From positions 248,001 through 312,000 of the forward strand of contig NZ_CP107812.1 in assembly GCF_036346105.1 (NCBI RefSeq): a DNA stretch of 64,000 nucleotides, given 5' to 3'. The notes under the pieces are model-generated. The model was not told where the DNA came from. It saw only the letters and a program-made list of their open reading frames with translations, and did no database searches. This document shows positions 41,276-56,016 of this stretch, in pieces. The position numbers and the translations under genes are program-made. The first letter of the stretch is position 1; each line of letters starts with the position of its first letter. The DNA comes from Streptomyces sp. NBC_00539 (GTDB lineage Bacteria; Actinomycetota; Actinomycetes; Streptomycetales; Streptomycetaceae).

Positions 41276-43027
41276 CTACGAGGCGGAGATCAGGGACTGG
41301 CTGGTGACCAGTTCCCGGTACGGGGCGCACTCGTCCATGAGGGCGCCGTGTGTCCCCGCATCCACCGCTGTTCCGGCGGCGAGCATGATGACGTGGTCGG
41401 CGTTCTGCACGGTCGAGAGCCGATGGGTCACGACCAGGACGGCCCGGGTCGCGGCCATGTCGTCCACGACCTGGCGGAAGCGCTCCTCGTTGATGCTGTC
41501 CATCTGGGAAGTGGGCTCGTCCATCAGGACGATCTCGGCGTCGGTGAGCAGGACGCGGGCAAGGGCCAAGCGCTGTCGCTGCCCGCCGGAGAGGTCGTTT
41601 TCCCGGCCCAGTACGGTGTCCAGGCCGTCCGGCAGGGCTTCGATGTCCTCTCGCAGTCCCACGGCGGCCAAGGCCTCGGCCAGTTCGGAGTCGGAGGCCG
41701 GACGACCGCACCCGAGCTGCAGGTTGTCGCGGACCGAGCCCTCCAGCAGGGTGAACTGCTGGTCCACGTACGCGATGCGGCGGCGCAGGTCGTCGAGGGG
41801 CCAGTCCCCGACGGGATGTCCGAGGACGGATATCCGGCCCCCGTCCGCGTGCACGAAGCGGTCGATGAGGTTGAGGGCTGTCGTCTTTCCCGCTCCGGAG
41901 GGCCCCACGAAGGCCGTCAGGCCGGTACGCGGCGCGCTGAATCCGAGGCCGGCGAGGGTGGTCGTACCGGTGTAGGAGAACGACACCGAGTCGAAGACGA
42001 CTGCCGGTGCCCCTGGTACCGGCTCGGGGCGGGGCGTTCCGGGGGACCTGTCGTCCGATTCCTGTGGCAGGGAGAGCAACTCCTCGAAGCGCACCCGGGC
42101 GGCGAGCCCCGCCTGCAGGCGGCCGATACCGGTGGCGACCACTGTGACCGGCCCGACCAGTTGCAGGAGGTAGAGCAGGAACGCCGCGAAGTCCGGGGCG
42201 GACAGCTTGCCGTCGGCCATTCGGGCGCCACCGCCGATGATCACCGAGACCAGGGCGATCTGCTGTCCCAGCCCCATGACGGGAGAAATGAATGACTGGA
42301 GCCGGGCTCCGGCCAGGGAGGTCGAGGTGAGCTGCCGGGCGTCCTCGCCCAACCGGTCGGCCGCCCCGCGCTCGAAGCGGTAGGCCTTGATGGTGGTGAG
42401 CGCGGACAGGTAGGTGGTGAAGCGCTGGGCGAGTTCGCCCATGGCGCCCTGCTGTTCGACGACGTTGCGCTTGACGCGCACCAGGACGAACCCGATGGCG
42501 ATGCCGGCGACGGCGAAAGACGCGATGCTGATGAGCACCAGCGCCCAGTCCAGGAACGCCATGACCGCCAAGGTGGCGACGACCGTCAGGACGGCGAGCG
42601 GCAGCTGTACGACTCCCACGTCTATGACGGCCCGCAGCAGGATGGCGTCCGAAGTGATCCGGGCCACGAGGTTGCCGATGCCCTGGACACGGAGGGTGGC
42701 CATGGGCAGCCGCAGCGCGTGCGCCATGACACGGCGGCGCAGTCGCAGGATCATGTGCTCGCCGACCCTGGCCAGGAGGTAGCCCGAGACCGCCAGCGTC
42801 ACCGCTGCGGCGAGCGCCGCACCCGCCATCATCAGAATGGGGCGCACGATGGGTTCGTCCTTGGCGAACGCGTCGATGACCTCCTTGACGATCAGTGGCA
42901 CGGCCAGGGTGCCGGCCGTCGAGACCAGGGCCAGCAGCAACGCCACGGCGAGCATGCCCCGGCCCGAGGCGAGGATGTCGGCACCGATGCGAACGTTTGC
43001 CCGAGGCCGGCTCGTGGACAGCGGCAC
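41276..43027 (-). CDS. ABC transporter with fused membrane and ATPase domains (LanT-type exporter)
   Basis: A 583-residue half-transporter. Six membrane helices (LAVALLLALVSTAGTLAVPLI, ILMMAGAALAAAVTLAVSGYLLA, and others) lead to an ATPase with Walker A GPSGAGKTT, signature LSGGQRQRLALARVLL, Walker B AEIVLMDEPTS and the H-loop VTHRL. There is no N-terminal peptidase domain, so it exports a peptide processed by other enzymes, here presumably the M16 pair. GTG 43027 follows directly after the stop of the small gene. Last gene of the leftward RiPP operon. Confidence 0.93.
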   Translation of the reverse strand: MPLSTSRPRANVRIGADILASGRGMLAVALLLALVSTAGTLAVPLIVKEVIDAFAKDEPIVRPILMMAGAALAAAVTLAVSGYLLARVGEHMILRLRRRVMAHALRLPMATLRVQGIGNLVARITSDAILLRAVIDVGVVQLPLAVLTVVATLAVMAFLDWALVLISIASFAVAGIAIGFVLVRVKRNVVEQQGAMGELAQRFTTYLSALTTIKAYRFERGAADRLGEDARQLTSTSLAGARLQSFISPVMGLGQQIALVSVIIGGGARMADGKLSAPDFAAFLLYLLQLVGPVTVVATGIGRLQAGLAARVRFEELLSLPQESDDRSPGTPRPEPVPGAPAVVFDSVSFSYTGTTTLAGLGFSAPRTGLTAFVGPSGAGKTTALNLIDRFVHADGGRISVLGHPVGDWPLDDLRRRIAYVDQQFTLLEGSVRDNLQLGCGRPASDSELAEALAAVGLREDIEALPDGLDTVLGRENDLSGGQRQRLALARVLLTDAEIVLMDEPTSQMDSINEERFRQVVDDMAATRAVLVVTHRLSTVQNADHVIMLAAGTAVDAGTHGALMDECAPYRELVTSQSLISAS

Positions 43028-43028
43028 C

Positions 43029-43337
43029 TCAGCGCTCCGCCGCGAGCGTGACCAGAGCGACCGCCTCGCCGAGGCCGAGACTCGGAACGGCCTGGCGAAG
43101 CTTCTTGATGGTGCGGGCACTGGTGTCGCCGGCGGGGACGCCGGCTTCGTCGAGGTACTGGCGTGCCCAGCGGACCTTGATGTCGGTGTCGCTGTGTCGG
43201 TACTCGTCTAGCAGGGACAGGGCGCGGCGCAGCCCGGGGGCTTCGGACGCGTCCGCGGTCGAGGCGGCCTGCTCGATGGCAGCCCGTACGGGGTCGAGGT
43301 CGTGGAGGACGACGAGGTTGATGCCGTGGGTTTTCAC
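43029..43337 (-). CDS. Small hypothetical protein of the RiPP operon
   Basis: A 102-residue, probably all-helical protein, HGINLVVLHDLDPVRAAIEQAA, LRRALSLLDEYRHSDTDIKVRWARQYLDEAG and the C-terminal AVPSLGLGEAVALVTLAAE. I do not recognise a family. Its place between the LanX candidate and the transporter, with one base between stop and next start, indicates a pathway role. Confidence 0.75.
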   Translation of the reverse strand: MKTHGINLVVLHDLDPVRAAIEQAASTADASEAPGLRRALSLLDEYRHSDTDIKVRWARQYLDEAGVPAGDTSARTIKKLRQAVPSLGLGEAVALVTLAAER

Positions 43338-43415: not shown

Positions 43416-44399
43416 TCAGACACCACCGTCGAGTGCGGCCAGCCCGTCGGTGTCGATGTAGCGGATCGCGGTCCGCGCGTAGAGTTCCAGCTCGGGGTGC
43501 CAGCCCACGTACGAGGCGAAGTCATGGGCGTGGGTGAGCATGCGCAAAGTCGCCGCCCGGCCCGCGACGACCGGGTCGACGGGGACGCCGTAGCCGGCGA
43601 GCAGTGCCTTGGGCAGCTCGGAGAGGATCGGTCGTGGTACGACGCGATGGACGGCGGTCATCCGCAGTTCCAGCAATTCGCCGAGCATCCATCCGAGATC
43701 GAACCCGGACGGACCGAGGGCCAGTTCCTCCCCGGTGAGCAGGGCCCCGGCGGTCGGAGGCGAGGCGCCCCCGTCGGTGAGTCCCTCCTCGTCCGCGGAG
43801 GGCCGGGCCGGCTCCGCTGGGAGCACGAGGGAACCGGTGCTCGGCGCACCGTGCAGGAGCGTCGCGTCCGGACCGGGTAGGGCGAGGTCGCGGCACCAGT
43901 CGCGGACCGCGGCCCAGCGTGTCGGGCCGACGCCGTCACGCAGCAGGCGGTGCATCCGGGCGGCGGCGCGGGGGCCGTGCCCGCCGTCCATCCAGGCGGC
44001 CAAGCGGGCCGGTCCGACAGGGCCTCCGGTGGCACTACCGGGCGGTGCCGGATAGGAGTGCAGCAGCCTGAGCACCTTGCCGACGGACCGGAAGGCCTCG
44101 GCCAAGCGCACGCTGTCGGCCTGTGAGGGCTCCGACCACAGCACCTTCGCTGCCGTGGTCGAGCCCGGGACCGCGTAGCGCAGTACGTCCCCGGACACGG
44201 TCGGCAGGCTGAGGGTGAGGAGGCCCGGGCGGGCCAGGGACGCCAAATGGCTCCGGGCCGCAGCGGAGGGCGCGGTGAGGGGCGTCGGCCGGTCCAGGCC
44301 GGCGCCGCGCGTCCACAGAAACGTGCCGTCGCCGATCCGGTGAATCGTCGTGCGCTGGAATCCGGTCGCGAACATGTCCACGAGGACGGGCTCTGTCAC
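43416..44399 (-). CDS. Degenerate kinase-like protein (LanX candidate)
   Basis: A 327-residue protein with a distant aminoglycoside phosphotransferase-like layout. At the HxDxxxxN position it reads HGAPSTGS (183-190), without the catalytic Asp, and at the metal-binding DFG/DxD place ELALGPSGFDLGWMLGELL (225-243). The N-terminal ATP part is also weak. This fits a pseudokinase. Class V lanthipeptide systems need a third protein, LanX, with LanK and LanY, and this is the best candidate by size and place. GTG 44399 overlaps the decarboxylase stop (GTGA). Confidence 0.65.
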   Translation of the reverse strand: MTEPVLVDMFATGFQRTTIHRIGDGTFLWTRGAGLDRPTPLTAPSAAARSHLASLARPGLLTLSLPTVSGDVLRYAVPGSTTAAKVLWSEPSQADSVRLAEAFRSVGKVLRLLHSYPAPPGSATGGPVGPARLAAWMDGGHGPRAAARMHRLLRDGVGPTRWAAVRDWCRDLALPGPDATLLHGAPSTGSLVLPAEPARPSADEEGLTDGGASPPTAGALLTGEELALGPSGFDLGWMLGELLELRMTAVHRVVPRPILSELPKALLAGYGVPVDPVVAGRAATLRMLTHAHDFASYVGWHPELELYARTAIRYIDTDGLAALDGGV

Positions 44400-45055
44400 G
44401 GGTTCGGCTCCGTCCGCTCGCTCCGCGGCGTGCCTTCCGTGGCGACCGCGCTGTCCGTGGCCCCGCCCGCGGCGGCGGCCCGCAGCCGCTCCGCGGCCAA
44501 CAGAACCTCGGGAAGCGGCGCGGCGGTCGCCGCATCGGGCTTGCCGGTGGTGATGCTCACCCCGGGATGGGGCGGGACGACGTGGACGTTGGCCCGCCGT
44601 TCGAGGGCCGCCATGTGGCACTCCCATGCGGCTGAGGTCAAGGCTCCGGGCGGCAGGGCCGGAGCCAGCACGATGGGGGCGCGCGTGCACTGCAGCGCGA
44701 GCAGTACCGGGGTGTCCGCCACTCCGAGCGCCAGGCGGCTGGTGAAGTGGAACGTGGCGGGATGCACGATGACGGTGTCGGCCCACTCGGCCATCTCGAC
44801 GTGGGCTGCGGACTCCTCGGGTTCCTCAGTCCAGGAGTCGAGCTGCGGAGTATGCCCGGCGAACACCGAGAGCGCTGTCGGCGTGACGAACTTGGTCGCG
44901 GACCGGGTGATGACCGTGCGTACGGCCAGTTCGGGGTAGGCGGCGCGGAGCCAGTGCACCCACATGGGCATGAACATCACCCCGAGGGAGCCCGTACCCA
45001 CGTAGAGCAGCCTGCGGGCGGTGAACGGCGGTGCCGCGGTGGGGTTCTCATGCAT
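44396..45055 (-). CDS. HFCD flavoprotein, peptidyl-cysteine decarboxylase (LanD/CypD-like)
   Basis: A 219-residue protein of the EpiD/CypD family. These enzymes oxidatively decarboxylate a C-terminal Cys to an enethiol, which then forms AviCys. The start LLYVGTGSLGVMFMPMWVHWLR is the flavin-binding strand-loop, the active-site His is in DTVIVHPATFHFTS and the substrate clamp region reads VLAPALPPGALTSAAW. Both precursor peptides end in Cys, which fits. Its start overlaps the upstream LLM gene by 8 bp. Confidence 0.87.
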   Translation of the reverse strand: MHENPTAAPPFTARRLLYVGTGSLGVMFMPMWVHWLRAAYPELAVRTVITRSATKFVTPTALSVFAGHTPQLDSWTEEPEESAAHVEMAEWADTVIVHPATFHFTSRLALGVADTPVLLALQCTRAPIVLAPALPPGALTSAAWECHMAALERRANVHVVPPHPGVSITTGKPDAATAAPLPEVLLAAERLRAAAAGGATDSAVATEGTPRSERTEPNP

Positions 45056-46031
45056 GGCGGCCGTCCACCGCGGCGAGGATCTGCTGCATGTCCGTCATGG
45101 CCGCCCCCATGCCGAGTGCGGTGTAGACGCCGCAGACATTGAGGATGACCTCGCCCACACCCGCCGCCCGGTACCGGTCGAGGCCGTCCGCGATCTCTGC
45201 GGGGGTACCGGAGACAAACGTGCGGGAGGAGACGAGGAGCGCCGCGCCGCCCTTGGTGTCCGCCGGGTCGGCCGGGACGCCGGCTTGGCGCAGCATGTCG
45301 GTGTAGTGCGGGCTGCCCAGGTGGGCGTAGGCCGCGGAGTGGGCTATGGCCTCGATGTCGCGGCCCGGGCGTTGCACCGCCACGTGGACGACGGTCGCCA
45401 CACGGGGAACGGGGCGCTCGGCCTGCGCCGCCCCCTGTTCCAGCGCGGGAACGAGTGCCTCCTCGATGAACCGTGGTGGAGTCAGCCAGGTGATGGCGAC
45501 ATCGGCGACCCGGCCCGCCGCGCGGGCCATGGCTGGGCGCAGGACTCCGAGCCCCAGCTCGACCGGGGGCGCGTTCATGACCGGCAGCGCTCCGTGCGTG
45601 CTGTGTTCCAGCCCGTCGGTGTCGGCCCCGCCCCGGCTCTCGATCAGTTCCCGCATCGTGGTGACGTACTGGCTGCTGACGGTGACGGGCTTCGGCATGG
45701 GGGCGGGACGGACCATGCGCTGGAACGCCTCCCCGCCCGGGCCGATGCCCGCCACGAACGGCAGCCCGGACAGTTGGGCGACGGAGCGGGCCTGCACCGC
45801 CGCGTCGTACGGATGACGTAGACCCGCCAGGGCGACCGAGGTACCGAAGGGGATGCGGATCCCCGCTCCCGCGAGCGCGGCGAAGACGTGGTGCGTTTCG
45901 ACGCCGAGGGACTGTCCCAGCCACAGACGTCCCGAGCCGCGCCGCTGGAGCAGTTGGGCGAAGGGGAGGACCTGTGCGACCTGAGTGGGCTGGACGGGGA
46001 AGACGATGCTCGTGGTGTGCGGGGAGATCAC
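45048..46031 (-). CDS. LLM-class (F420-dependent) oxidoreductase, LanJ-type reductase candidate
   Basis: A 327-residue luciferase-like TIM-barrel oxidoreductase: QLLQRRGSGRLWLGQSLGVETHHVFAALAGAG, GTSVALAGLRHPYDAAVQARSVAQLSGLPFVAGIGPGG and FVSGTPAEIADGLDRYRAAGVGEVILNV. In the class V lanthipeptide lexapeptide an F420H2-dependent reductase turns dehydroalanine into D-Ala; this gene sits in the equivalent position. GTG 46031 overlaps the stop of the M16 gene upstream (GTGA). F420 use is inferred from the family. Confidence 0.82.
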   Translation of the reverse strand: MISPHTTSIVFPVQPTQVAQVLPFAQLLQRRGSGRLWLGQSLGVETHHVFAALAGAGIRIPFGTSVALAGLRHPYDAAVQARSVAQLSGLPFVAGIGPGGEAFQRMVRPAPMPKPVTVSSQYVTTMRELIESRGGADTDGLEHSTHGALPVMNAPPVELGLGVLRPAMARAAGRVADVAITWLTPPRFIEEALVPALEQGAAQAERPVPRVATVVHVAVQRPGRDIEAIAHSAAYAHLGSPHYTDMLRQAGVPADPADTKGGAALLVSSRTFVSGTPAEIADGLDRYRAAGVGEVILNVCGVYTALGMGAAMTDMQQILAAVDGRHA

Positions 46032-47344
46032 AGGAACGTCTCCGTCTCGAAGGGGGTGGGGGAGTCTCCGAGGACGACGCCGTGGAAGTCGTCGGGATCG
46101 AAGAAGCGGCCGGCCGCGGCGGCGACATCGTTCTCGGTCACCGAGGTGAAGTCGTCCAGGATGCGGCTGATGCGTTCGGGCTCCTGCCCGGTGGCCAGGG
46201 CGAGCATCAGGCTGCTCGCCCAGCCCTGTTGGGAGGAGGCCGCCAGAGCGGTCATCCCGGTGACGTACCGCCGGGCCGCCTCGATCTCGGCCGAGGTCGG
46301 CGGTTCCGTGCGCATACGCCGCAGTTGCGCCCGCAGGTGGTCGAGGGTCCTGCGGCCGTGCTCCGTGGCGGTGTCGGCCTCCACCGCCACGACCAGCTGG
46401 TCGAGGTGGTCTCGGAAGACCGACTCGCACCGGTAGGCCAGCCCGTGCCGTTCACGGACCTCCGCGACCAGGCGCGAGGAGAAGTACCCGCCGAAGACGA
46501 TGTTGGCTAGCGTCAAGGCCGCGAAGCCGGGGTCGGTGCGGGCGAGTCCCGGGCGGACCAGGCGGATCTGGGTCTGCGTCGCCCCCGGTCGGGGCACCCG
46601 GGCGATGGTGCGGGCACGCGGCTGCGGCAGCAGAGGGCCTTCCGTCGTCTCCCACGTCGTGCCGGCCGCTTCCCACTCCGCGAAGGCTCGGGTCACCTGC
46701 TCTACGGCCAGATCGGGATCGAGATCGCCCACCAGGATCAGCGCCGCCCGGTCAGGCCGTACGCACTGGTGGTGGGCCAGGCGTACCTGTTCGTGGCCGA
46801 CCGCAGCGAGGTCCGCCTCGCGCGGCACGTCCTGCATCTGCGGCAGCGGCCCGTAGAGGTGTTCCACCAGCGCTTCGGAGGCGATGAGTTGGGGCTGTGC
46901 ACGCGTGGCGGCGAGTTGCCCCCGGGCGCGCACCATGACCGCGCGGACCACGTCGTCGGTGAAACGGGGGCGTACCAGGGACCGGGCCAGGACATCCAGT
47001 TGCAGAGGAAGGAGCGAGCTGGGGCCGGAGCCGGCGACGCCGAGCCAGCGCGCGGAGCGAGTAGCGGACAGGAGGCTTCCGGATGCGGCCAGGTCGTCAT
47101 CGGCCGGTCCCTGCTCCCCGGCCGCGGTGTGCCCCAGCAGTGATGCGGCCAGCACTTCCTGGACGGCCGCATCGGCGAACGACTCCACGTGGAGCGGGAT
47201 CGCCAGTCGCAGCTCCGTCATGGGGGTGGAGGCGTGGCGGGCGGCGATGACGCGCAGCCCGCTCTCCAGGCGTACGTCGGCCAGAGGGGGCAGGCCGACC
47301 GGGACGGGGGGACCAATTGGGGGGAGCACGCTGCTGCGGTTCAC
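46028..47344 (-). CDS. M16-family peptidase subunit, non-catalytic
   Basis: A 438-residue M16B-type protein. The zinc-binding HxxEH segment is absent: the matching place reads AAVQEVLAASLLGH. The C-terminal half keeps the family substrate-binding signature (SSRLVAEVRERHGLAYRCES). Non-catalytic chains pair with catalytic ones in mitochondrial-type processing peptidases and in RiPP clusters. It is coupled by GTGA overlap with the catalytic M16 gene upstream, so the two likely form a heterodimer that removes the leader. Confidence 0.87.
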   Translation of the reverse strand: MNRSSVLPPIGPPVPVGLPPLADVRLESGLRVIAARHASTPMTELRLAIPLHVESFADAAVQEVLAASLLGHTAAGEQGPADDDLAASGSLLSATRSARWLGVAGSGPSSLLPLQLDVLARSLVRPRFTDDVVRAVMVRARGQLAATRAQPQLIASEALVEHLYGPLPQMQDVPREADLAAVGHEQVRLAHHQCVRPDRAALILVGDLDPDLAVEQVTRAFAEWEAAGTTWETTEGPLLPQPRARTIARVPRPGATQTQIRLVRPGLARTDPGFAALTLANIVFGGYFSSRLVAEVRERHGLAYRCESVFRDHLDQLVVAVEADTATEHGRRTLDHLRAQLRRMRTEPPTSAEIEAARRYVTGMTALAASSQQGWASSLMLALATGQEPERISRILDDFTSVTENDVAAAAGRFFDPDDFHGVVLGDSPTPFETETFL

Positions 47345-48627
47345 CGGTAAACTCCCGTGGGCGTGATGAGGGACAGCACGGCGCGCCTGCCTCTCGCGAG
47401 GTGCGCCGCGGCGGAGCGGACGTCTTCGGCGCTGACGGCCGCGAGTCGTGGGGCCAGGGTGTCGACGAGTTCCGGGGCCCCGAAGAGCAACTCGTAGGTG
47501 CCGAGCGCGCGGGTCCGTACGACAAGGTTGTCGAACCCTCGCCACGTTCCGGCGGAGGCCAGTGCCCTACCCTCCTCGAGCTCCAGCCCGGTGGGGCCGT
47601 TCGCTGCCAGCTCGGCGATCTCGGTGTCGAGGACGTCGAGGACCGCGTCGACGGGTGTGGTGCGCGGGTGCATGGCCAGCACCACCAGGGTCTCGGGGGA
47701 CCGGGCGCGCAGCGGGCCGAACAGTCCGCAGCTGCTGCTGACATCCGTCAAGAGCTCGCTCCGGTGAGCCATGTGTCGTTTCAGGCGGGCGGAGTCCCGT
47801 CCGGTGAGCATCTGGGTCAGCACCATGTGACTCAGGTACTGGGGCAGCGAAGTCGCCGGATCGGGCAGGCGGTAGCCGAGAGCGGTGGCGGCGAGTACGG
47901 CATGCGGGTCACGGTGTTCGCCCCGCAGCTCCCCGGCCGGCTCGGGCTCGTCGAGGAACGGAGGCGCGGGGCGGGGGCGGGCCGGGATGCCGCCGAAGTG
48001 ACGGTCCGCGAGGTCCAGGGCGTGCCGCGGATCGACGTTCCCGCAGATGGTCAGGACCGCATTGGCCGGGGTGTAGTACGTCTCGTAGAATGCCTGGCAC
48101 TCCTCCAGCGAGGCGGCCTCCAGGTCCCCGAACGAGCCGTAGCCGTTGTGGGCGTTGCGGAACTCCCTGTAGAGGACCCCGGGCAGCACGGTCCAGGGGA
48201 ATCCGCCGTAGGGCTTGTCCGTGACCGACTGCCGGATCTCCTCCTTGACCACGGCGATCTGGGTGCGCAGCGTCTCCTCGGTGATGCGCAGGGCCCTCAT
48301 CCGGTCGGCTTCCAGAAACAGCAGCCGGTCCAGCGCCGATGCGGGCAGCACCTGGTAGAAATCGGTGTAGTCCTGGTGGGTGGAGCCGTTGGCAGTCCCG
48401 CCCGAGGCTTGGACGTGGCGGAAATGATCGGCTGGCCCGACGTGCTCGCTGCCCTGGAACATCACGTGCTCGAAGAGGTGCGCGAATCCGCTCCGGCCCG
48501 GAAGTTCGGACCGGAATCCGACGTCGTAGTGGACGGCGACGCCTACGGACGGCATGCCGGGCAACGGCTGCACCACGAGGCGCAGGCCGTTGGACAGTGT
48601 TGAGCGGATCACTGGGGCGCGGGACAT
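47341..48627 (-). CDS. M16-family zinc peptidase, catalytic subunit
   Basis: A 428-residue M16B peptidase. The inverted zinc motif HLFEH is at residues 50-54 and the third ligand region VVKEEIRQ at 126-133. SFGDLEAASLEECQAFYETYYTPANAVLTICGN is the usual following segment. It is the first gene of the leftward RiPP operon, 193 bp from the divergent LanK gene. Expected to cut the lanthipeptide leader together with the next gene product. Confidence 0.92.
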   Translation of the reverse strand: MSRAPVIRSTLSNGLRLVVQPLPGMPSVGVAVHYDVGFRSELPGRSGFAHLFEHVMFQGSEHVGPADHFRHVQASGGTANGSTHQDYTDFYQVLPASALDRLLFLEADRMRALRITEETLRTQIAVVKEEIRQSVTDKPYGGFPWTVLPGVLYREFRNAHNGYGSFGDLEAASLEECQAFYETYYTPANAVLTICGNVDPRHALDLADRHFGGIPARPRPAPPFLDEPEPAGELRGEHRDPHAVLAATALGYRLPDPATSLPQYLSHMVLTQMLTGRDSARLKRHMAHRSELLTDVSSSCGLFGPLRARSPETLVVLAMHPRTTPVDAVLDVLDTEIAELAANGPTGLELEEGRALASAGTWRGFDNLVVRTRALGTYELLFGAPELVDTLAPRLAAVSAEDVRSAAAHLARGRRAVLSLITPTGVYR

Positions 48628-48820: not shown

Positions 48821-49972
48821 GTGACAAGAATCCAAGGAGCTCCCAACAAGGAATCCGCGCCGACCCGGTCCCGGTACGCCCCTGCAGATCTCGCCGGAGT
48901 CCCGGAGGTCGCGGCGTTGCTCGGCGCGCTCGGCCTGGGTGCGTTCGACCCTGACGACGTGACATCCCGGGTGGGCCGCAACGACAACTGGGCCGGTACG
49001 ACGACGACGGGCGCACGCGTCTTCGTCAAGCGGCTGAGGGGCCCAGAGCCGGCCGAGGCCCGCAGCCGGTACGACCGCATCCTCGCCTTCGAGGCCTTGG
49101 CGGCCCGCCACCCGGGATCAGCCCTTATCGGTCCGTCCCTGCTCGGCTCCGACGCCGACGCGATGCTCGTCGTCTTCGAACTCTTGGAGGACGCCCGTTC
49201 AGGGTCTGAGCTCAACGCCGACGACGCGTTCGACGAGGAGTTGAGCCACCAGGCCGGGCGGCTCACGGGCGAGTTGCACGCCCTGCCCGCGGACGCGGGC
49301 CTGCTGGACACTACGCCCCACCCGATGCCCCCGCTACATCCGCACAACGCCGTGTCCCTGAGGGGCCTGGTCTCCTCGACGTTCGGCGAACTGGAGACCT
49401 GGAGACTGATCCAGTCCGACCGGAAGGTCGTCGACGCCCTGCACCGGTTGCGCGCAGCCGAGGCCGCGGTGCAGGACCGCAGGCCGATCCACGGAGACCT
49501 GAGGCTCGACCAGTTCCTTCTGACTCCGCAAAAGCTGCTTCTGACGGACTGGGAGGAGTTCCGTCTCGGGGACCCCGCCCGGGACCTCGGTGCCGTCATC
49601 GGCGAGTGGCTCTACACCGCCATCCACGGCATTCCCCGCTCCATCGGAGACACTCCCGGGTTCACCTTCGACCAGCAGACCTCACACGAGGAGATCCTCG
49701 AACACGGGGTACGGGAACTTGACCGGCTACGGCCCCGGATGCGTGCCTTCTGGGCCGGATACCGCTCCGTGCGCGGTGCGGCCGCCGACGACGGGCTGCG
49801 TATCCGCGCCGCCTTGTACGCCGGGTGGCACATGTTCGACCGCATGCTCGCCACCGCGATGGTCGGTGGACGCGTGATCGCCGCCGATCGGGCCGGCGCG
49901 GGCATCGGGCGCAGCATCCTGCTGGCGCCCGAGAGCAGCACCGACATCCTGGGACTGGGAGACGCACTGTGA
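48821..49972 (+). CDS. Aminoglycoside phosphotransferase-like kinase (LanK of class V)
   Basis: A 383-residue APH/HSK-type kinase. ATP-binding Lys is in ARVFVKRL (residue 70), the catalytic loop is HGDLRLDQ (224-231) and the metal-binding Asp in TDWEEFRLGDPARDL (242-255). In class V lanthipeptides this kinase phosphorylates Ser/Thr of the precursor before elimination by a HopA1-like lyase. Its stop overlaps the LanY start (GTGA). No ribosome site precedes GTG 48821, so the start is uncertain. Confidence 0.86.
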   Translation: MTRIQGAPNKESAPTRSRYAPADLAGVPEVAALLGALGLGAFDPDDVTSRVGRNDNWAGTTTTGARVFVKRLRGPEPAEARSRYDRILAFEALAARHPGSALIGPSLLGSDADAMLVVFELLEDARSGSELNADDAFDEELSHQAGRLTGELHALPADAGLLDTTPHPMPPLHPHNAVSLRGLVSSTFGELETWRLIQSDRKVVDALHRLRAAEAAVQDRRPIHGDLRLDQFLLTPQKLLLTDWEEFRLGDPARDLGAVIGEWLYTAIHGIPRSIGDTPGFTFDQQTSHEEILEHGVRELDRLRPRMRAFWAGYRSVRGAAADDGLRIRAALYAGWHMFDRMLATAMVGGRVIAADRAGAGIGRSILLAPESSTDILGLGDAL

Positions 49973-50952
49973 TACCGATGACCACCGATGCCCTCGCTCC
50001 CGCCCTCCTACGGACCGCCCGGGACATCTCCGTCTCCTCCGACGGACTGAGCGCGACGGTCGGATCGGAGTCCCTGGAGGCAGACACGCCCGGCAAGCTG
50101 GCGGGGAAGCTGTCGCAGACCCTGTATCAGCTAGTGCACACGGGTAAGGACAGGGCGGAGACCACCCGTCCACGGAGCCTGCGCGATCCGGAGTTCGACC
50201 GCCTGCTGACCGATGCCATGCCGCACTCCCACACGCTCGCCGACGCGGTCGTCCGCGAACGCACCGATGACGGCATGCTCGTGGCGGAGCTGGGCGGACT
50301 GCGCGTCCTCCTTCCCGCGGACACGCTCGTGGGCGAGCCTCCCGCAAAGCTGCCGAGCGCTGCGGCGATACGGTTGCCCGCGGCCCGGCCAGCCCTGTCC
50401 ACCGGGTTCTTCCTCACCGACGGCTCGGCGGGCACGGGTGTCGGCCGAGGGGCGCAGACCCTTCGTGTGTACGTCCACGTCACCTCGGCCGAGGCGGCAC
50501 CCCAGGTGTGGAACACGGTGCTGACGTACCTGGAGGAAAGGCGGCTGGTGTACCGGGCGAAGATCACCTCCAGTCCCCAGCTGTTCCCGCGACGCGACGC
50601 CCTCGTCGTCTACCTGCCCCCGCAGAGTTGGTCGGCTGTTCGGGGGATCGGGGCGTGCGTGTCCGGTCTCGAAGGGCTGGGTCCGGACACCTCGCCATTC
50701 GCCCACCAGGTGGTGCCCGGCGTCGCCGTCGCGTGGGAGCCTCAGGATGCCCGTCCCGGGATGCAGGGCCTGAGTTTCGGTGAACACCGCAGCGGTGCGC
50801 TGGCCCAGGCCATGGTCAAGCACCGGGTGCGCCCCGACGGCGTCGGTCTAGAAGACACGATGCGGGAGGTGTTCTGGGACGCCGGGATCGACCCGTTGGC
50901 GCCGGCCCGCAACCTGGCCTCGCCGCCGCTGCCCGACCTCGGGCTGCTGTAG
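49969..50952 (+). CDS. HopA1-effector-like protein (LanY of class V)
   Basis: A 327-residue protein I identify as the T3SS HopA1-like family. LSQTLYQLVHTGKDRAETTRP lies in the first third, GFFLTDGSAGTGVGRGAQTLRVYVHV in the middle and SPFAHQVVPGVAVAWEPQDA then SFGEHRSGALAQAMVKHR in the last third. In class V lanthipeptides HopA1-like LanY acts with LanK, eliminating phosphate to form dehydro residues. GTG 49969 overlaps the kinase stop and has GGGAG 9 bp upstream; ATG 49978 is the alternative. Confidence 0.82.
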   Translation: MIPMTTDALAPALLRTARDISVSSDGLSATVGSESLEADTPGKLAGKLSQTLYQLVHTGKDRAETTRPRSLRDPEFDRLLTDAMPHSHTLADAVVRERTDDGMLVAELGGLRVLLPADTLVGEPPAKLPSAAAIRLPAARPALSTGFFLTDGSAGTGVGRGAQTLRVYVHVTSAEAAPQVWNTVLTYLEERRLVYRAKITSSPQLFPRRDALVVYLPPQSWSAVRGIGACVSGLEGLGPDTSPFAHQVVPGVAVAWEPQDARPGMQGLSFGEHRSGALAQAMVKHRVRPDGVGLEDTMREVFWDAGIDPLAPARNLASPPLPDLGLL

Positions 50953-50960
50953 GCCGCCGC

Positions 50961-51260
50961 GTGCTGCGCTGTCCGACCGCGTCGGCAGCCCTGCGGATCC
51001 GGGCGGTCATGAGCCTGCTGTCCCGTGCGGAGCCGCGCGATGCGCTCTGTCGGCGGTTGGGCGTGTGCTCCCAGTGTCTGGAGGAGTGGGCCGATGCGTT
51101 TTTGACTCATGCCCTCCAGGGCCTGACGTCTCCGGGCGCTCCCGTAGACCGGTACGAGGTGCTTGCCAGGGAGGCGGAGGCCCTGGCCCGAGCGCTCGAC
51201 GAGACACGGACGGAACTAGAGGTGTGGTCAAGACTAGTCCGCCGCGCGACGAGCAATTGA
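50961..51260 (+). CDS. Small hypothetical protein downstream of LanY
   Basis: A 99-residue protein (or 83 residues from ATG 51009). CRRLGVCSQCLEEWADAFLTHALQG has a Cys cluster and the C-terminal LAREAEALARALDETRTELEVWSRLVRRA is a likely coiled coil. I do not recognise a family. It starts 8 bp after the LanY stop and ends before a terminator, so it belongs to the same transcript. Confidence 0.6.
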   Translation: MLRCPTASAALRIRAVMSLLSRAEPRDALCRRLGVCSQCLEEWADAFLTHALQGLTSPGAPVDRYEVLAREAEALARALDETRTELEVWSRLVRRATSN

Positions 51261-51281
51261 GGACAACGGCGGATATCGAAG

Positions 51282-51311
51282 AAAGGGACCCGTGGGCACG
51301 GGTCCCTTTTT
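51282..51311 (+). terminator. Rho-independent terminator after the LanK-LanY operon
   Basis: Stem GGGACCCG (51285-51292) with CGGGTCCC (51299-51306), flanked by AAA and followed by five Ts. It separates the enzyme operon from the precursor genes. Confidence 0.85.
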
Positions 51312-51345
51312 CGTGTGCGGAATGCCGGTGCCGACGGGTGCAGTG

Positions 51346-51368
51346 AAAGTAGTGTCGGACGCAATTTG
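51346..51368. promoter_or_regulatory. Half-operator motif upstream of the precursor genes
   Basis: AAAGTAGTGTCGGACGCAAT resembles one side of the operator at 48654-48689 (AAAGTAATGTCGTCCGG). It lies about 140 bp before the first precursor. Confidence 0.45.
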
Positions 51369-51508
51369 TTGTGGAGTCCCGGAGAACGTGCAGCTCAGGG
51401 CTTTGTGGAGAGAACCAAGCCATAAGTTTCCGGCTTCATCTAGAGGGGTCCGTGTGGTCAACTGATTCCGCAAAGCGCATTCCGAAGCACATACGAGAGA
51501 GGCCAGAC

Positions 51509-51706
51509 GTGAACGCCAGTCAGCTGATCGCCGGTTACACCGCTTACACCACCGCCGAGGAGTTCGGCGCCACTGCACAGGGTGACGCCCCGGCGACCAC
51601 GCCGTCGATCCTCAGCTTCATCGACATCTCGAGCGCCGCGTGCGGTGCCGCCGTCAGCGCCGTCAGCGCCGCGTCCGTGGGCGCCACCGCCCACGTCGGC
51701 TGCTGA
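51509..51706 (+). CDS. Lanthipeptide precursor peptide 1
   Basis: A 65-residue peptide. The leader (residues 1-32) begins MNASQLIAGYTAYTTAEEFG and ends GDAPATTP. The core SILSFIDISSAACGAAVSA... ends HVGC and carries 8 Ser, 1 Thr and 2 Cys. A C-terminal Cys after Gly is as in cacaoidin-type lanthidins and fits AviCys formation by the LanD-type enzyme. GTG start at 51509 with AGAGAGG upstream. The coding region for the leader is identical to that of precursor 2. Confidence 0.85.
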   Translation: MNASQLIAGYTAYTTAEEFGATAQGDAPATTPSILSFIDISSAACGAAVSAVSAASVGATAHVGC

Positions 51707-51741
51707 TCCACCCACCCCACTCACACCTCAGGAGAAGTTCC

Positions 51742-51942
51742 ATGAACGCCAGTCAGCTGATCGCCGGTTACACCGCTTACACCACCGCCGAGGAGTTCGG
51801 CGCCACTGCACAGGGTGACGCCCCGGCGACCACGCCGCTGACGGTCACCACGGTCTCCTCGCCCGAGTGCACCGCGTTCTCCGTCAGCGCCGCGAGCGGC
51901 GTCCTGACCAGCGTGTCCATCACGCACGCGGCGGGCTGCTGA
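51742..51942 (+). CDS. Lanthipeptide precursor peptide 2
   Basis: A 66-residue peptide, 35 bp after precursor 1. The leader is the same 32 residues. The core LTVTTVSSPECTAFSVSAAS... ends HAAGC, with 8 Ser, 6 Thr and 2 Cys in 34 residues. The SSPECTAFSVSAAS part resembles the start of the cacaoidin core as I remember it. ATG 51742 follows CAGGAGAAG. Tandem organisation suggests two products or a two-peptide agent. No methyltransferase gene was seen, so N-terminal methylation is not expected. Confidence 0.85.
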   Translation: MNASQLIAGYTAYTTAEEFGATAQGDAPATTPLTVTTVSSPECTAFSVSAASGVLTSVSITHAAGC

Positions 51943-51954
51943 TCGACTGGGAAC

Positions 51955-51993
51955 GGGGTGGAGCCGCCGAGGGGCATTCGGCGGCTCCACCCC
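51955..51993. terminator. Strong hairpin after the precursor genes
   Basis: A perfect 16-bp stem (GGGGTGGAGCCGCCGA and its complement) with a 7-base loop, no clear U-tract. It lies 13 bp beyond the second precursor stop and may end the transcript or protect its 3' end. Confidence 0.75.
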
Positions 51994-52108
51994 GCCGGTC
52001 CTAGACCGTGTTCTCCGGAGCCGTCGTACTTTCCCTGCGAGAGGATCGCGTGGAAAGTGCGGCGGCTCCGGCGCGTCCGGCCCGGGTACCGGGTCCGCGG
52101 CTCCCGGC

Positions 52109-52435
52109 TCAGCCCAGGCTAGCGCCCCGCCCCTTGGCCTGATCGGCGATCTGCTGCAGCGCCGAGAGATGGCCGGCGAGATTGCTTCGGCCAGTACCGG
52201 TCAGCGTCAGCCAGGTGCGGGGGCGTTTGCCCACGTACCCCTTCCGTACCGCGACGTACCCGGCGTCCTCCAGGGCCGTCACGATCTTGCTCAGGGCGGA
52301 GTCGGACAGGTCCAGCCCGTCGCGTACCGCCTTGAACTCGGCCTCCGTGCAACTGGACAGGAAGGCGACGACCGCGAGTTTGCTGGGGTGTTGGATGACC
52401 GCGTCCAACTGCGGCAGCGGATCTGGTCCGGTCAT
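52109..52435 (-). CDS. Winged-helix (MarR/HTH_34-like) regulator
   Basis: A 108-residue regulator: AVIQHPSKLAVVAFLSSCTEAEFKAVRDGLDLSDSALSKIVTALEDAGYVAVRKGYVGKRPRTW, a wing-type domain common in small Streptomyces regulators. It is coupled to the membrane protein gene upstream by ATGA overlap. It may bind the CAAAGTAATG operator of the cluster, which is an inference from proximity. Confidence 0.82.
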   Translation of the reverse strand: MTGPDPLPQLDAVIQHPSKLAVVAFLSSCTEAEFKAVRDGLDLSDSALSKIVTALEDAGYVAVRKGYVGKRPRTWLTLTGTGRSNLAGHLSALQQIADQAKGRGASLG

Positions 52436-52875
52436 GCCGCGATGCCGTTCCTCAAGCGCACCAGCTGGAACCAGGCAAGTACCCCCAGACCGATCCCGGC
52501 GACCGCCAGGCAGCCCACGACGCCGGCGAACAGCGCCCCGAAGCCGCCGGCGATGAACGGCAGCAGTGCAGGTAGCTGACGCAGCGTCCGCTCCCGCGTG
52601 GTGCCCGCAGGAGCGGGCACCACGCCACCGGCACGGACCGTGGAGGCGATGGCGAGAAGGAAGAGAACAAGACAGATGGCGGCTGCGACGAGGAAGGCCG
52701 GTTCGTCACGATATTTGTACGCGAGGCCGAAATTGACGAACCCTCCGGCGAGCAGCAGGCCAGCCGCCGGGGGAAGCCAGGAGGGCATCGGGCGGGGGCC
52801 GCGAGCGGTGCTACTTGCCGAACCGGCCACTGTGAGAGCCGAGTTCGCCTCATCTGGAGTGGGAAGCTTTTCCAT
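52432..52875 (-). CDS. Small integral membrane protein coupled to the regulator
   Basis: A 147-residue protein with four likely helices (WLPPAAGLLLAGGFVNFGLAYKY, FLVAAAICLVLFLLAIASTV, LLPFIAGGFGALFAGVVGCLA and VAGIGLGVLAWFQLV). It may sense envelope stress or the peptide and control the wHTH regulator, or give immunity. Family not recognised. Confidence 0.75.
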   Translation of the reverse strand: MEKLPTPDEANSALTVAGSASSTARGPRPMPSWLPPAAGLLLAGGFVNFGLAYKYRDEPAFLVAAAICLVLFLLAIASTVRAGGVVPAPAGTTRERTLRQLPALLPFIAGGFGALFAGVVGCLAVAGIGLGVLAWFQLVRLRNGIAA

Positions 52876-53430
52876 GCTTCCATCCTCGCATGCACTTTCC
52901 TGCCAGGCAAGTAGTTTCTCAGACGCGCGGTTTGGCAGTCGGGACGGACGCTCCATAGGCTCGACCGTGATCAACGAGGGCGACGACCACCTGCGCACCG
53001 GGCACGTCCCGACGCGGGCGCCCGCACTGCGCGATGGGGGATCTTTCATGAACGGGGACTGGAGCCTCGGGGAACCCGCAGGCGAGCACCCCTCGCCGGC
53101 ACGGGCCGCGCAAGGCCACCCGCTCTCCAGAACGACGGTCGTTCCCGTGCGGGGGACCCGACGGGGTTTCGACCGAACCTGAAATGCGGTGACACCAGAC
53201 CGCGATGCCCTCTTTCCGATTGGGCGGAGCGGGCTGTTCGCCCTGTCTGAAATCAGGTACTCGCACTGCGGGGCCCCTCTGAATTGTTCCTCAGATCTTC
53301 CTCAATGAACTTGCAGGCGCAGGGGGAACGTAAACAAGATGTGTCGCACACGCCTCGTTGTCGGGTCCGCGGCGACCACCAGCGGACAACTCTTTATGAC
53401 AACGACACAGACCGGGGGAGAGATTTCGAC
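52876..53430. other. 555-bp intergenic region
   Basis: No gene found. GGCAAGTAGTTTC near 52903-52915 loosely resembles the CAAAGTAATG operator and lies just upstream of the regulator/membrane operon start. The rest shows no repeat or hairpin I would support. Confidence 0.4.
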
Positions 53431-53881
53431 GTGCCCAGACCACCCGTAATACCTCCAGAAGAGAAGGCGAAGCTCGTCCTGACCGTTCTGTCCGGCGACC
53501 TGTCCGTGTCGCAGGCAGCCAGCAGTGTCGGGGTCTCGGAACAGGCGGTCGGCAACTGGAAGCGCCAGTTCATCAGCTCCGGAACCCAGGGACTCGAAGG
53601 CGGAGTCAGTCAGAGCAGCGAGCGGGAACGCCGCCTGCTCGCCCAGATCACGGAGCTCAAGACGGCGCTCGGCGAGGTGTACATCCAGCTCAGGGCCAGG
53701 CGCAACGCAGTGGACCACCATGCGGTCCCTTCCCGGACCTCGACGCCGTACGGAGCGAATGCGGGCTCAGCGTTTCGAGGTTCTGCCAGATCATCGGCAT
53801 AGCCCGCAGTACCTATACGCAAAGGCGTCTGACCCACGCCAACAGCACATCAGAACGAAAGTTCTCCACGGGGGACAAGTG
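53431..53881 (+). pseudogene. IS3-type OrfA-like HTH gene with a frame break
   Basis: From GTG 53431 one frame encodes PPEEKAKLVLTVLSGDLSVSQAASSVGVSEQAVGNWKRQFISSG and LEGGVSQSSERERRLLAQITELKTALGEVYIQLRA, an IS3/IS911 OrfA-like HTH plus leucine zipper, ending at 53802. Another frame continues as DLDAVRSECGLSVSRFCQIIGIARSTYTQRR and stops at 53881, where its TGA overlaps the ABC ATPase start. The join near 53705-53730 needs a frame change, programmed or mutational. It could be a transposase remnant or a regulator used by the cluster. Confidence 0.6.
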
Positions 53882-54808
53882 AAATCCGATCAGGCAGTAC
53901 TTGAAATAGAAGGAATCTCGAAGCGTTACGGCAGTCGCGTCGCGCTCGACGAAATGGAATTCAGCGTCGGAGCCGGAGAAATATTCGGCTTCGTCGGCGG
54001 AAACGGCGCTGGCAAGACCACGACCATGCGCATCATCATCGGGGTGCTGGAAAAGGACGCCGGAGCCGTCCGATGGAGCGGACGTCCCCTCGACGCAAAG
54101 ACCCGGACCTCATTCGGTTACATGCCGGAAGAACGCGGTCTCTATCCCAGGATGACCGTCGGCAACCACCTCCAATACCTCGCGCGGCTGCACGGTATGG
54201 ACCGGCACGCCGCTCGCACGGCCATGCATACCTGGACGGAAAGGCTCGACATCGGGCAGCACCGCGACCGCGCGGTCGACTCCCTCAGCCTCGGAAACCA
54301 GCAGCGCGTGCAGCTGGCCGCCGCCCTGGTGCACGACCCTCGGTTCCTGCTCCTCGACGAACCGTTCTCCGGCCTCGACCCACTGGCCGTCGACACCATG
54401 AGCAGCGTCCTGCGGAGCAAGGCGGACGAAGGGGTCCCCGTGCTCTTTTCCAGCCATCAGCTCGACCTTGTCGAGCGGCTCTGCGACCGCGTCGGCATCG
54501 CGAGCAAGGGGACGATGGTCGCCTGCGGCACAGTGGAGGAACTCCGCGCCGGCGCCGACAACAGCGTCTACATCGAGGTCGACGACGCGCCCGACGACTG
54601 GCCCGCCTCCATCCCGGGCGCCGATGACCTACCCGCCCACCGACGGGGCGCGGGAATCGTCCTCGGTCTGCCGCACGGCTTCGACGAGAACCGACTCCTG
54701 CACCACGCCATGAGGCTGGGACGTGTCGTGGCCTTCCACCGCCAACGACCGTCCCTCACCGAGCTCTTCCGCTCCGCGGTCACCGACGAACCGCAGGAGG
54801 CGGCATGA
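53879..54808 (+). CDS. ABC-2 type exporter ATPase (NatA-like)
   Basis: A 309-residue ATPase: Walker A GNGAGKTT (residues about 39-46), LSLGNQQRVQLAAALVHDP as a variant signature (LSGGQ expected), Walker B FLLLDEPFSGLDP and the H-loop LFSSHQLDLVERL. The C-terminal part is a NatA-type extension. GTG 53879 follows GGGGGACAA and overlaps the preceding frame's TGA. With the permease it is a likely immunity or export pump for the lanthipeptides. Confidence 0.92.
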   Translation: MKSDQAVLEIEGISKRYGSRVALDEMEFSVGAGEIFGFVGGNGAGKTTTMRIIIGVLEKDAGAVRWSGRPLDAKTRTSFGYMPEERGLYPRMTVGNHLQYLARLHGMDRHAARTAMHTWTERLDIGQHRDRAVDSLSLGNQQRVQLAAALVHDPRFLLLDEPFSGLDPLAVDTMSSVLRSKADEGVPVLFSSHQLDLVERLCDRVGIASKGTMVACGTVEELRAGADNSVYIEVDDAPDDWPASIPGADDLPAHRRGAGIVLGLPHGFDENRLLHHAMRLGRVVAFHRQRPSLTELFRSAVTDEPQEAA

Positions 54809-56016
54809 GCCCGGCACAGAAGACGGCGGGCGCGGCATCCGCGGGCACCGCGGTGCGGCTGGTCACCTGGCGGGAGATCCACGCCCGCGTCGGCACCCGT
54901 TCCTTCGTGGTGGGAACCCTGGTGAACATCGGAGTTATCCTCGGGCTCCTCTTCGCCTTCGGCTCCTCGGACAGTGAAGACCAGCCCGTCGTCGTGGTCG
55001 CAGGCACGCCGGTGGCGGCCTTCGTAACGGGGACGCCGGGCAGGGAAGCTGCACGGTGGGAAAGCGCTGCGGACGCCGCCGACGCCCGCCGGAAGGTCAC
55101 GGACAAGGAGGCGGACGCCGCCCTCGTCACCGACGGCGACCGAACTCGGCTGATCCTCCGACACAACAGCCCGCCCGCAGCCCGCGAAGCAGCGGCTGCG
55201 GCTGCGGAACGCTGGGCCACATCCCGCGCACTCCACCAGCAGAACGTCGATGAGGCACGGATGCGCGCTCTCGTGGCCGAGGCCCTTCCAGCCGCCGAAC
55301 TCGTCGGTGACCCGGTGCCCGGCGGAGCAGGGCTCGGCGCGGCACTCGGTGTCGTGACCATCTTGTTCTTCCAGCTCTTCGGTTACGGGATGACGGTCGC
55401 CCAGGGCGTAGTCGAGGAGAAGTCGACCCGCGTCGTCGAGGTCCTGCTCGCCACGCTCACCCCCTTCCGCCTCATGACGGGCAAGGTGCTCGGCATCGGC
55501 GCGGCGGCGCTCCTCCAGACTGCGCTGTTCGGAGCATCAGTGGTCCTCGCGGTCCGCTTCGGGCACGTCCTGCCCGCCACGTTCCCCGCGACGGCGACGA
55601 TGGCCGCCGCCGTGGCCTGGTTCGTACTGGGGTTCGCCTTCTTCGCCTTCCTCTTCGCCGCCGCCGGCTCCCTGGTCTCGCGTGCGGAGGAGGTCTCGGG
55701 AGCCGTGATGCCGGTTCTGATGGCGACACTGGTGCCCTACGGTGTCGCGGTCGCCGCGGCGATGGACCTGACGGCCCCGTGGGTGGGCGTTGTCCAGTAC
55801 ATACCGCCGTTCTCAATGCTGATCATGCCGTTGCAGGTGAGCGCGCACACCGCCGGGTGGACGGCGAACCTGGCCGCAGCGTCCTTGATGGCCGTTGCGG
55901 CGGTCGGCCTGGCGGTCGGTGCGGCCCGCGTCTATGAGCGGTCGATCTTGAGGATGGGATCGGCCATCCGCTGGAGCGTCGCCATGCGCGGCCACCGGGA
56001 GCCCGTCGCCGACTGA
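54805..56016 (+). CDS. ABC-2 type permease (NatB-like)
   Basis: A 403-residue permease. An N-terminal helix (SFVVGTLVNIGVILGLLFAFG) and an extracytoplasmic domain are followed by a cluster of helices (GLGAALGVVTILFFQLFGYGMTVAQG, ALLQTALFGASVVLAVRFG, FVLGFAFFAFLFAAAGSL and others). GVVEEKSTRVVEVLLATLTPFRLMTGKVLG is the classic NatB segment. The start overlaps the ATPase stop (ATGA). Confidence 0.92.
   Translation: MSPAQKTAGAASAGTAVRLVTWREIHARVGTRSFVVGTLVNIGVILGLLFAFGSSDSEDQPVVVVAGTPVAAFVTGTPGREAARWESAADAADARRKVTDKEADAALVTDGDRTRLILRHNSPPAAREAAAAAAERWATSRALHQQNVDEARMRALVAEALPAAELVGDPVPGGAGLGAALGVVTILFFQLFGYGMTVAQGVVEEKSTRVVEVLLATLTPFRLMTGKVLGIGAAALLQTALFGASVVLAVRFGHVLPATFPATATMAAAVAWFVLGFAFFAFLFAAAGSLVSRAEEVSGAVMPVLMATLVPYGVAVAAAMDLTAPWVGVVQYIPPFSMLIMPLQVSAHTAGWTANLAAASLMAVAAVGLAVGAARVYERSILRMGSAIRWSVAMRGHREPVAD

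Follow-up and report, generated by a model that had tools for sequence, protein, structure and literature searches.

Class V is the most recently described class of lanthipeptides. The ros cluster contains K, Y, D, X and J genes, two M16B peptidases, T1-T3, several precursors and no N-methyltransferase, and has an S-x3-C lanthionine and a T-x4-C aminovinylmethylcysteine (AviMeCys) ring (PMC12291118). As that paper counts 851 class Va clusters, and 151 that lack an N-methyltransferase, the non-methylated state was already known. Here we describe a locus comparable to ros at positions 41276-56016 of a window of Streptomyces sp. NBC_00539 (GCF_036346105.1, contig NZ_CP107812.1, positions 248,001-312,000), the window being the whole 64,000-nt stretch of DNA that was analysed; all coordinates are those of the window. 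Going by its sequence, we assign this locus with high confidence to the class Va lanthipeptides (lanthidins), as a complete gene cluster. The features in which it varies are its pair of precursor cores and two small genes resembling OrfA of the insertion sequence (IS) family IS3; it is a genuine class Va member.

Biosynthetic enzymes and class assignment

Genes were annotated with Pfam and NCBIfam profile searches at curated cut-offs, comparison to PDB entries, and structure modelling followed by Foldseek. An earlier note on this DNA had named an APH-like kinase, a HopA1-like protein, a degenerate kinase as LanX, a Cys decarboxylase, a luciferase-like monooxygenase (LLM)/F420-type reductase, an M16 pair, exporters and two short precursors, and all of these were recovered at the positions it gave. 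The Ser/Thr kinase of the dehydratase, lanK (48821..49972, + strand), matches the LxmK model NF038156 with 438.9 bits (cut-off 315) and Pfam APH with 55.6 (cut-off 23.2), and its product aligns to LxmK in the PDB (9dk1_A) at E 5.7e-83. The LxmK residues Arg49, Lys66, Asp221, Gln226 and Asp241 named in PMC12291118 fall on LanK R53, K70, D226, Q231 and D243 in an alignment in which the deposited chain was taken as offset by two, and these five are invariant in 16 LanK sequences. The HopA1-type phosphate lyase gene lanY (49978..50952, +) matches HopA1 PF17914 with 140.7 bits (cut-off 22.7; frame 49825-50952) and LxmY (9dk1_B) at E 3.4e-47, and LanY R163, K195, R205 and Y212 have the same spacing as CaoY R187, K219, R229 and Y236, the roles of which are given in PMC9486802. 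Since lanY is the only HopA1 match of the whole genome at E <= 0.001, and the two precursors its only LxmA leaders, the match of the cluster is not a matter of chance.

The product of lanX (43416..44399, - strand), a candidate kinase-fold AviMeCys cyclase, has no family match in Pfam or NCBIfam, APH included, and no HxD motif. Its structure model (mean predicted local distance difference test score, pLDDT, 93.2) has a kinase fold, with TvaE (8jsu, E 4.2e-10) as the best Foldseek match and LxmK (9dk2) at E 1.3e-6. In an alignment of 46 LanX sequences E244 is the sole invariant Glu, H290 does not vary and D293 hardly does, with H290 and D293 spaced as His269 and Asp272 of RosX. From invariance and spacing, rather than from an alignment with RosX itself, E244, H290 and D293 probably correspond to RosX Glu220, His269 and Asp272.

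The flavoprotein Cys decarboxylase gene lanD (44396..45055, -) matches Flavoprotein PF02441 with 57.3 bits (cut-off 22.7), so that the profile check proposed in the earlier note, for HopA1 and the homo-oligomeric flavin-containing Cys decarboxylase (HFCD) family, gave a hit for both. LanD has the motif HVEMAEWAD, which contains His85. The LLM-class F420-type dehydroalanine (Dha) reductase gene lanJ (45048..46031, -) matches Bac_luciferase with 87.0 bits (cut-off 27.9; frame 45048-46430). M16 domains are present in both members of the peptidase pair, lanP1 (46028..47344, -; Peptidase_M16_C 94.7 bits in frame 46028-47545) and lanP2 (47341..48627, -; Peptidase_M16 47.6 and M16_C 83.2 bits). LanP2 has the HxxEH motif as HLFEH at residue 50 and LanP1, the inactive half, does not, in keeping with an active LxmP2 and an inactive LxmP1 (PMC8068269).

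The earlier note saw no LanB, LanC, LanM or LanKC, and our searches agree. The LANC_like domain, which is also present in LanM and LanKC, has no match on the cluster's contig and matches the genome on contig C1 only; LanB had no match among the scanned open reading frames (ORFs) of the window, no genome-wide LanB search having been made. The absence of a methyltransferase also stands for the window, as none was found there by Methyltransf_25 and Methyltransf_2 searches or among the ORFs scanned, which were not every ORF. Across the genome Methyltransf_25 has 53 matches, and the single one on the cluster's contig lies about 100 kb to the left of the window. There are five for Methyltransf_2, to which the cacaoidin and pristinin methyltransferases belong, the contig's one lying at the same place as its Methyltransf_25 match. 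With an LxmK-family kinase, a HopA1 lyase, the LanX fold, LanD together with a C-terminal Cys, LxmA leaders and no LanC-type enzyme, class V membership holds on every testable feature, and these features place the cluster in class Va.

Two precursors with near-identical leaders and distinct cores

The precursor genes lanA1 (alpha; 51509..51706, +; 65 aa, GTG start) and lanA2 (beta; 51742..51942, +; 66 aa) match LxmA_leader with 48.6 bits (on 51515-51706) and 49.0 bits, respectively (cut-off 25). Both leaders read (V/M)NASQLIAGYTAYTTAEEFGATAQGDAPA, after which the core starts with TTP; the alpha core is TTPSILSFIDISSAACGAAVSAVSAASVGATAHVGC and the beta core TTPLTVTTVSSPECTAFSVSAASGVLTSVSITHAAGC. 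Over their first 96 bases the two genes are identical at 95, the sole difference lying in the start codon, and third positions agree in 32/32 cases; the match stops at core residue 4. Each core has two Cys, one of them at its end, with a Ser four residues before the inner Cys (SSxxC) and a Thr five residues before the last. Because of this Thr, the C-terminal ring should be AviMeCys (Thr-x4-Cys) in both peptides; the earlier note had taken the Gly-Cys ends to fit aminovinylcysteine (AviCys), which is not the ring expected here. The linear A1 core has a mass of 3291.61 Da with 10 Ser/Thr, and the A2 core 3552.73 Da with 15; the masses calculated for complete dehydration and decarboxylation are 3065.50 and 3236.57 Da, to which each LanJ reduction would add 2.016 and deamination of an N-terminal dehydrobutyrine 0.98.

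We clustered, unlabelled and with k=2, the 14 cores of the window and of six relative loci (L042, L044, L047, L081, L083 and L099). One core of each type per cluster was obtained in 7/7 clusters, with SSxxC kept or removed, and the nearest core was one of the same type in another cluster in all 14 cases (types set by motif). Within the pair of Streptomyces monashensis (L083) the leaders are identical at 90/90 bases, and in the other five relatives at 66/84 to 80/90. In Streptomyces sp. NBC_00212 the leaders are identical at 87/90 bases, and by eye there is one core of each type. We considered and rejected a recent duplication of the entire precursor, as the cores are closer to those of other species than to each other. 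One core of each type per cluster, together with near-identical leaders, suggests that the cores form an alpha/beta pair and points to a two-peptide product. We read the pattern as gene conversion of the leader, with selection keeping the two cores distinct.

The nearest cores among the seven compared clusters are 75% (A1) and 51% (A2) identical. The products are thus likely to be new, as the earlier note had thought, though not proven so, the comparison covering these clusters rather than the supplementary precursor lists of mining papers.

Other relative loci vary in precursor number and type. L050 and L126 (Streptomyces djakartensis) have six precursor copies of repeated core types, which resembles tandem duplication of a pair. 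The detected cores of a sister class V group (L058, L067, L068, L070, L095, L096 and L161) have a C-terminal Cys only, so that an AviCys-type ring could form and a lanthionine could not; two core types are seen again in L067, L068 and L070. On the Streptomyces sp. NBC_01558 plasmid (L161), a tryptophan halogenase gene (L161:12083-13381, Trp_halogenase 131.8 bits) lies between lanY and a precursor with a core Trp, making a halogenated class V peptide possible.

Proposed pathway

LanK and LanY would bind the shared leader, phosphorylate core Ser and Thr residues and eliminate the phosphate, after which SSxxC would close by itself to a lanthionine (Ser12-Cys16 in A1, Ser10-Cys14 in A2). LanD would decarboxylate the last Cys oxidatively, and LanX would join the resulting enethiol to the dehydrobutyrine (Dhb) five residues upstream, giving AviMeCys at Thr31-Cys36 in A1 and Thr32-Cys37 in A2. 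LanJ would convert part of the Dha to D-Ala, and LanP1/P2 would cleave the leader, probably after APA, leaving an exposed N-terminal Dhb that could become 2-oxobutyryl. LanT1 would export the peptides, LanT2/T3 would export or protect, and the HTH_34 protein, its partner and the OrfA-like proteins would probably regulate the cluster; these roles in regulation and immunity we infer. Each chemical step is carried over from work on ros, lxm and cao to the genes and residues found here. The cluster would in this way make two related, non-identical bicyclic peptides, which we consider somewhat likelier to act as a pair than separately.

Three points weigh against parts of this scheme. LanD scores 95.2 bits with the CypD decarboxylase model, under its curated cut-off of 215, and LanJ scores 112.9 bits with the F420 reductase model TIGR03564, under its cut-off of 234.25. 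The 2-oxobutyryl end is proposed only by analogy with rosin A1, in which the dehydrated N-terminal Thr becomes 2-oxobutyryl (PMC12291118); the earlier note's unmodified N-terminus is therefore supported as regards methylation and may fail on this count.

A family of IS3-OrfA-like proteins in the cluster

The genes at 50961..51260 (+, copy 1) and 53431..53802 (+, copy 2) encode members of a family of small IS3-OrfA-like helix-turn-helix (HTH) proteins, here without a transposase partner. Copy 1 starts 8 bases after lanY, has an HTH with a degenerate recognition helix and scores 23.1 bits with HTH_28, under the cut-off of 25. Copy 2 has a canonical HTH and a coiled coil (HTH_Tnp_1 30.8 bits, cut-off 24.1). 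As a lone query, copy 1 finds copies after lanY of L044 (E 3.1e-7) and L042 (E 6.2e-7); it reaches 75.2 bits in the third profile round, with a model that possibly already included it. The position of copy 1 is conserved in relatives, and relatives of copy 2 occur in 11 of 40 relative loci. Over all the loci collected, the profile gave 48 domain matches, the window's two and duplicate genomes included. Among 33 distinct rows, 11 start 24-85 bases after the lanY match and six start 43-122 bases after the lanX match, distances being measured between profile matches and not gene ends.

The family is present in 12 of 80 named class V loci, some of which are partial. Among 393 genomes of the genus, at least 16 have the family (E <= 1e-8), at least 44 an LxmA leader and at least 12 both, the window's own included (Fisher p 1.2e-9, odds ratio 32); these counts are lower bounds, since per-genome scoring covered only some of the first-look candidates. 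In the other four of the 16, it lies beside linaridin precursors (G191 and G194; L074 93.4 bits, and an L075 peptide 66% identical to that of L074), some 6 kb away from an LchA2-type precursor and a LanM, near a class II lanthipeptide cluster (G297), or as a split copy beside an HTH_34 pair (G117). At L074, L075 and L181 the OrfA-like gene adjoins linaridin precursors, and in L181 it lies between methyltransferase and alpha/beta hydrolase genes. No paper on these OrfA-like genes was found in the open literature (subscription journals and supplements being outside the scope), which is weak evidence of their novelty; RefSeq labels family members in two plasmids 'hypothetical' or 'helix-turn-helix domain-containing'.

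Among 394 genomes of the class, 14 match the profile (E <= 1e-12), namely the window's own, G517 (L181, with its linaridin precursor) and 12 others. The neighbours of six of these 12 homologues were scanned, and all six adjoin an rve_3 OrfB; judging from these sequences, the family either descends from IS3 or is one that IS3 shares. The family tree is unsettled, with IS elements forming one group in 58% of bootstraps and copy 1 on an end branch of 4.25.

The relatives' copies have ratios of nonsynonymous to synonymous change (dN/dS) of 0.05-0.37 in 7/7 pairs, compared with 0.25 for LanY in two pairs; the window's genes are not among them. Copy 2 of the window has dN 0.31-0.38 and dS 1.13-3.00, partly saturated, and is likely to be under constraint. 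Copy 1 is very divergent (dN 0.77-1.15, dS 1.21-1.83), values that do not establish selection. The model of copy 2 has an HTH whose third helix continues into a long coiled coil (pLDDT 83.6, predicted template modelling score 0.44). In a fold search no structure matched the OrfA-like model at E <= 0.001, the best rows including HTH proteins such as ArdK (E 0.14-0.20) and a mitochondrial ribosome protein.

The two positions differ at the motif around an invariant Trp. Of the 11 rows close behind lanY, 4 read W(K/R)(R/K/N) here; of the 22 others, 21 do. Close behind lanY the motif is lost in seven clusters, each with an intact second copy: the window (EWADAF), L038, L042, L044, L047, L081 and L084. 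L099 keeps it in both copies, as do L045, L046 and L051 in the one copy found, and the one other exception is L082, whose only copy is decayed and lies 734 bases behind lanY. Among the eight clusters that have an intact second copy, seven thus have a copy after lanY that has lost its DNA-reading face and kept its coiled coil. As the loss falls mostly where an intact second copy exists, we suggest that as a rule one copy goes on reading DNA and the other is freed for pairing. Regulation is the likeliest role of these genes. A more ambitious reading, to which we give a little under even weight, is that RiPP (ribosomally synthesized and post-translationally modified peptide) pathways have taken over a lineage of IS3 OrfA proteins as a functional component, often in two forms, and that this two-peptide subfamily has its own transposon-derived control or assembly factor. 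The decayed form may in that case pair with the intact form or with the dehydratase rather than act on DNA.

Alternative explanations

The main competitor to a two-peptide product is that LanA1 and LanA2 are unlinked congeners, a small precursor library served by one tolerant enzyme set, each peptide acting alone; we regard this as a serious possibility, if a less than even one. The known systems lend it support, as rosins come as three, from the three precursors of the ros cluster, with rosin A1 studied alone (PMC12291118), and each of the kebanetides A1 and A2 shows activity by itself (PMC11162475). The six precursor copies of L050 fit it as well, and our own comparison has features that weigh against pairing: the seven clusters were chosen after their cores had been seen, a random deal of 14 cores into two sevens would give one of each with a chance of 128/3432 (about 4%), the k=2 split is no longer one of each and isolates L051 when L045 and L051 are added, and L084 gave one precursor and L082 none. 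Against unlinked congeners, every one of the seven clusters has one core of either type, and the cores stayed distinct where the leaders became identical. In a related class V family, sistertide A1 alone was inactive though the crude extract was active, and joint action of A1 and A2 was suggested (PMC11162475). For the peptides described here we place joint action slightly above even.

That the OrfA-like genes are leftover IS3 fragments with no role in the cluster is an unlikely explanation, even though they belong to the IS3 OrfA superfamily, their scanned class homologues adjoin OrfB and copy 1 has diverged so far. In NBC_01558 only 154 bases separate one copy (L161:19079-19429) from a gene for a DDE_5 transposase, and transposase genes are also nearby in NBC_00212. 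Such debris would not be expected to recur right behind lanY or lanX in many clusters, to keep the low dN/dS of the relatives' pairs and the dN of copy 2, or to keep company with a class V leader in at least 12 of 16 genus genomes. In addition, rve and rve_3 have no match on the window's contig, their four places each all being on the other contig, C1. Debris is disfavoured by placement, dN/dS and the lack of rve/rve_3 for the family as a whole, and less so for copy 1. The possible decay of copy 1 could also point to a silent or broken locus without a product; as the biosynthetic genes have intact reading frames and catalytic residues and are coupled in part, we consider this quite improbable. 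Least credible, at a very small probability, is that this is a thioamitide or linaridin cluster and not a lanthipeptide one. The kinase, HopA1 lyase, LanD and LanX do have thioamitide homologues (PMC12291118, PMC9486802), TvaE being the best fold match of LanX. In contrast, the leaders match LxmA and the kinase LxmK, both above cut-off, matches on which this identity was dropped; each core has an inner Cys with SSxxC, and the linaridin model matches precursors in other loci and not lanA1 or lanA2, no search having been aimed at the thioamide-forming proteins (YcaO-TfuA).

Gene organization and genomic setting

Leftward, the genes run lanP2, lanP1, lanJ, lanD, lanX and, if its start is at 43027, lanT1 after a gap of 388 bases. 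The GTGA overlaps of P2-P1, P1-J (lanJ start on lanP1 stop) and D-X (lanX start on lanD stop), with an 8-base J-D overlap, make this a coupled operon. The ABC (ATP-binding cassette) exporter gene lanT1 (41276..43027, -; start may be 43120) encodes membrane and ATPase parts (ABC_membrane 128.2 and ABC_tran 97 bits in frame 41276-43120) and has homologues in most relative loci. Rightward, lanK, lanY, OrfA-like copy 1, lanA1 and lanA2 are followed by a perfect 17-bp hairpin without a T tail (51954..51994; fold of 51943-52008 -50.2 kcal/mol, z -6.7), perhaps the end of the transcript. When 51261-53900 was scanned for promoters and terminators, nothing promoter-like turned up, and a single terminator-like site, at 53269, compares with 1.5 expected in shuffles.

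Beyond the hairpin lie a leftward winged-helix regulator gene (52109..52435, -; HTH_34 PF13601 77.3 bits), also near the precursors in relatives, and, with an ATGA overlap, a partner gene (52432..52956, -) found beside HTH_34 in relatives, whose product has hydrophobic stretches by eye and no Pfam match. OrfA-like copy 2 and the ABC-2 exporter genes then follow rightward: the ATPase gene lanT2 (53879..54808, +; ABC_tran 105.6 bits in frame 53525-54808, DrrA C-terminal domain 35.7) and the permease gene lanT3 (54805..56016, +; ABC2_membrane_3 113.9 bits). LanT2 scores 143.7 bits with the lantibiotic-protection ATPase model TIGR03740, under its cut-off of 309.75, and its probable role is immunity or export. 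The two OrfA-like genes, the HTH_34 gene with its partner (52109-52956), the hairpin and the plasmid-like setting were absent from the earlier note.

The host contig is 437 kb long in a genome of two contigs and 7.5 Mb. Left of the cluster, genes for a ParA-type ATPase (26049-27506), a D5_N protein (32119-33663) and a Prim-Pol protein (33660-34823) probably form a plasmid maintenance module (26049-34823), and a related cluster, with a LanK 51% identical, lies on a 439-kb linear plasmid of NBC_00212. Because of these genes and that linear plasmid, the contig carrying the cluster looks like a plasmid. Elsewhere in the window, a protein encoded at 59702-61528 matches the zeta-toxin family in two stretches (PF06414, 294.8 bits), 58681-58947 gives a weak ribbon-helix-helix match, and two regulators like the Streptomyces antibiotic regulatory proteins, with BTAD and Trans_reg_C domains, are encoded at 7157-7978 and 18938-19873.

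Significance and comparison with known systems

The cluster adds to class V a non-methylated pair whose joint action is directly testable, and its OrfA-like genes can serve as a marker and as a target for deletion. Should these genes be regulators, they may help in activating silent clusters; should they work with LanY or LanX, the minimal set of enzymes in use until now would lack a component in this subfamily. Copy 2 is like an IS3 OrfA in its HTH and coiled coil and HTH_Tnp_1 match, and the genes are unlike one in sitting inside RiPP operons, with no OrfB-type rve gene on the contig. TvaE, the best fold match of LanX, belongs to the thioviridamide/thioamitide pathway, was solved with a leader peptide and is 18-19% identical.

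Among lanthipeptides, the lexapeptide (lxm) cluster has one precursor. It shares LxmK and LxmY homologues, an M16 pair and an F420 reductase with the cluster described here, and differs in its methyltransferase LxmM (PMC8068269). Cacaoidin (cao) shares K, Y, X, D, J and ABC genes, a core S-S-x-x-C near the N-terminus and a T-x4-C end; in contrast to our cluster it has a methyltransferase, glycosyltransferases, sugar genes and one M16 protein, extras not seen among the scanned window ORFs (PMC8068269, PMC9486802). Pristinin A3 (spr) and sistertide/kebanetide (sis, keb) are likewise class V with several precursors per enzyme set (PMC7794033, PMC11162475), with a methyltransferase present; the sis and keb pairs combine a 3-Cys with a 2-Cys core, whereas both cores are 2-Cys here. 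The ros cluster differs in having three precursors rather than two, and the part of its description cited here mentions no OrfA-like or HTH_34 gene; the comparison made here is one of gene content. The earlier note had equated the gene set with that of cacaoidin, lexapeptide and pristinin A3, and its class V part holds; since no methyltransferase was found in the window, ros is closer by gene content than any of the three and is the closest described set.

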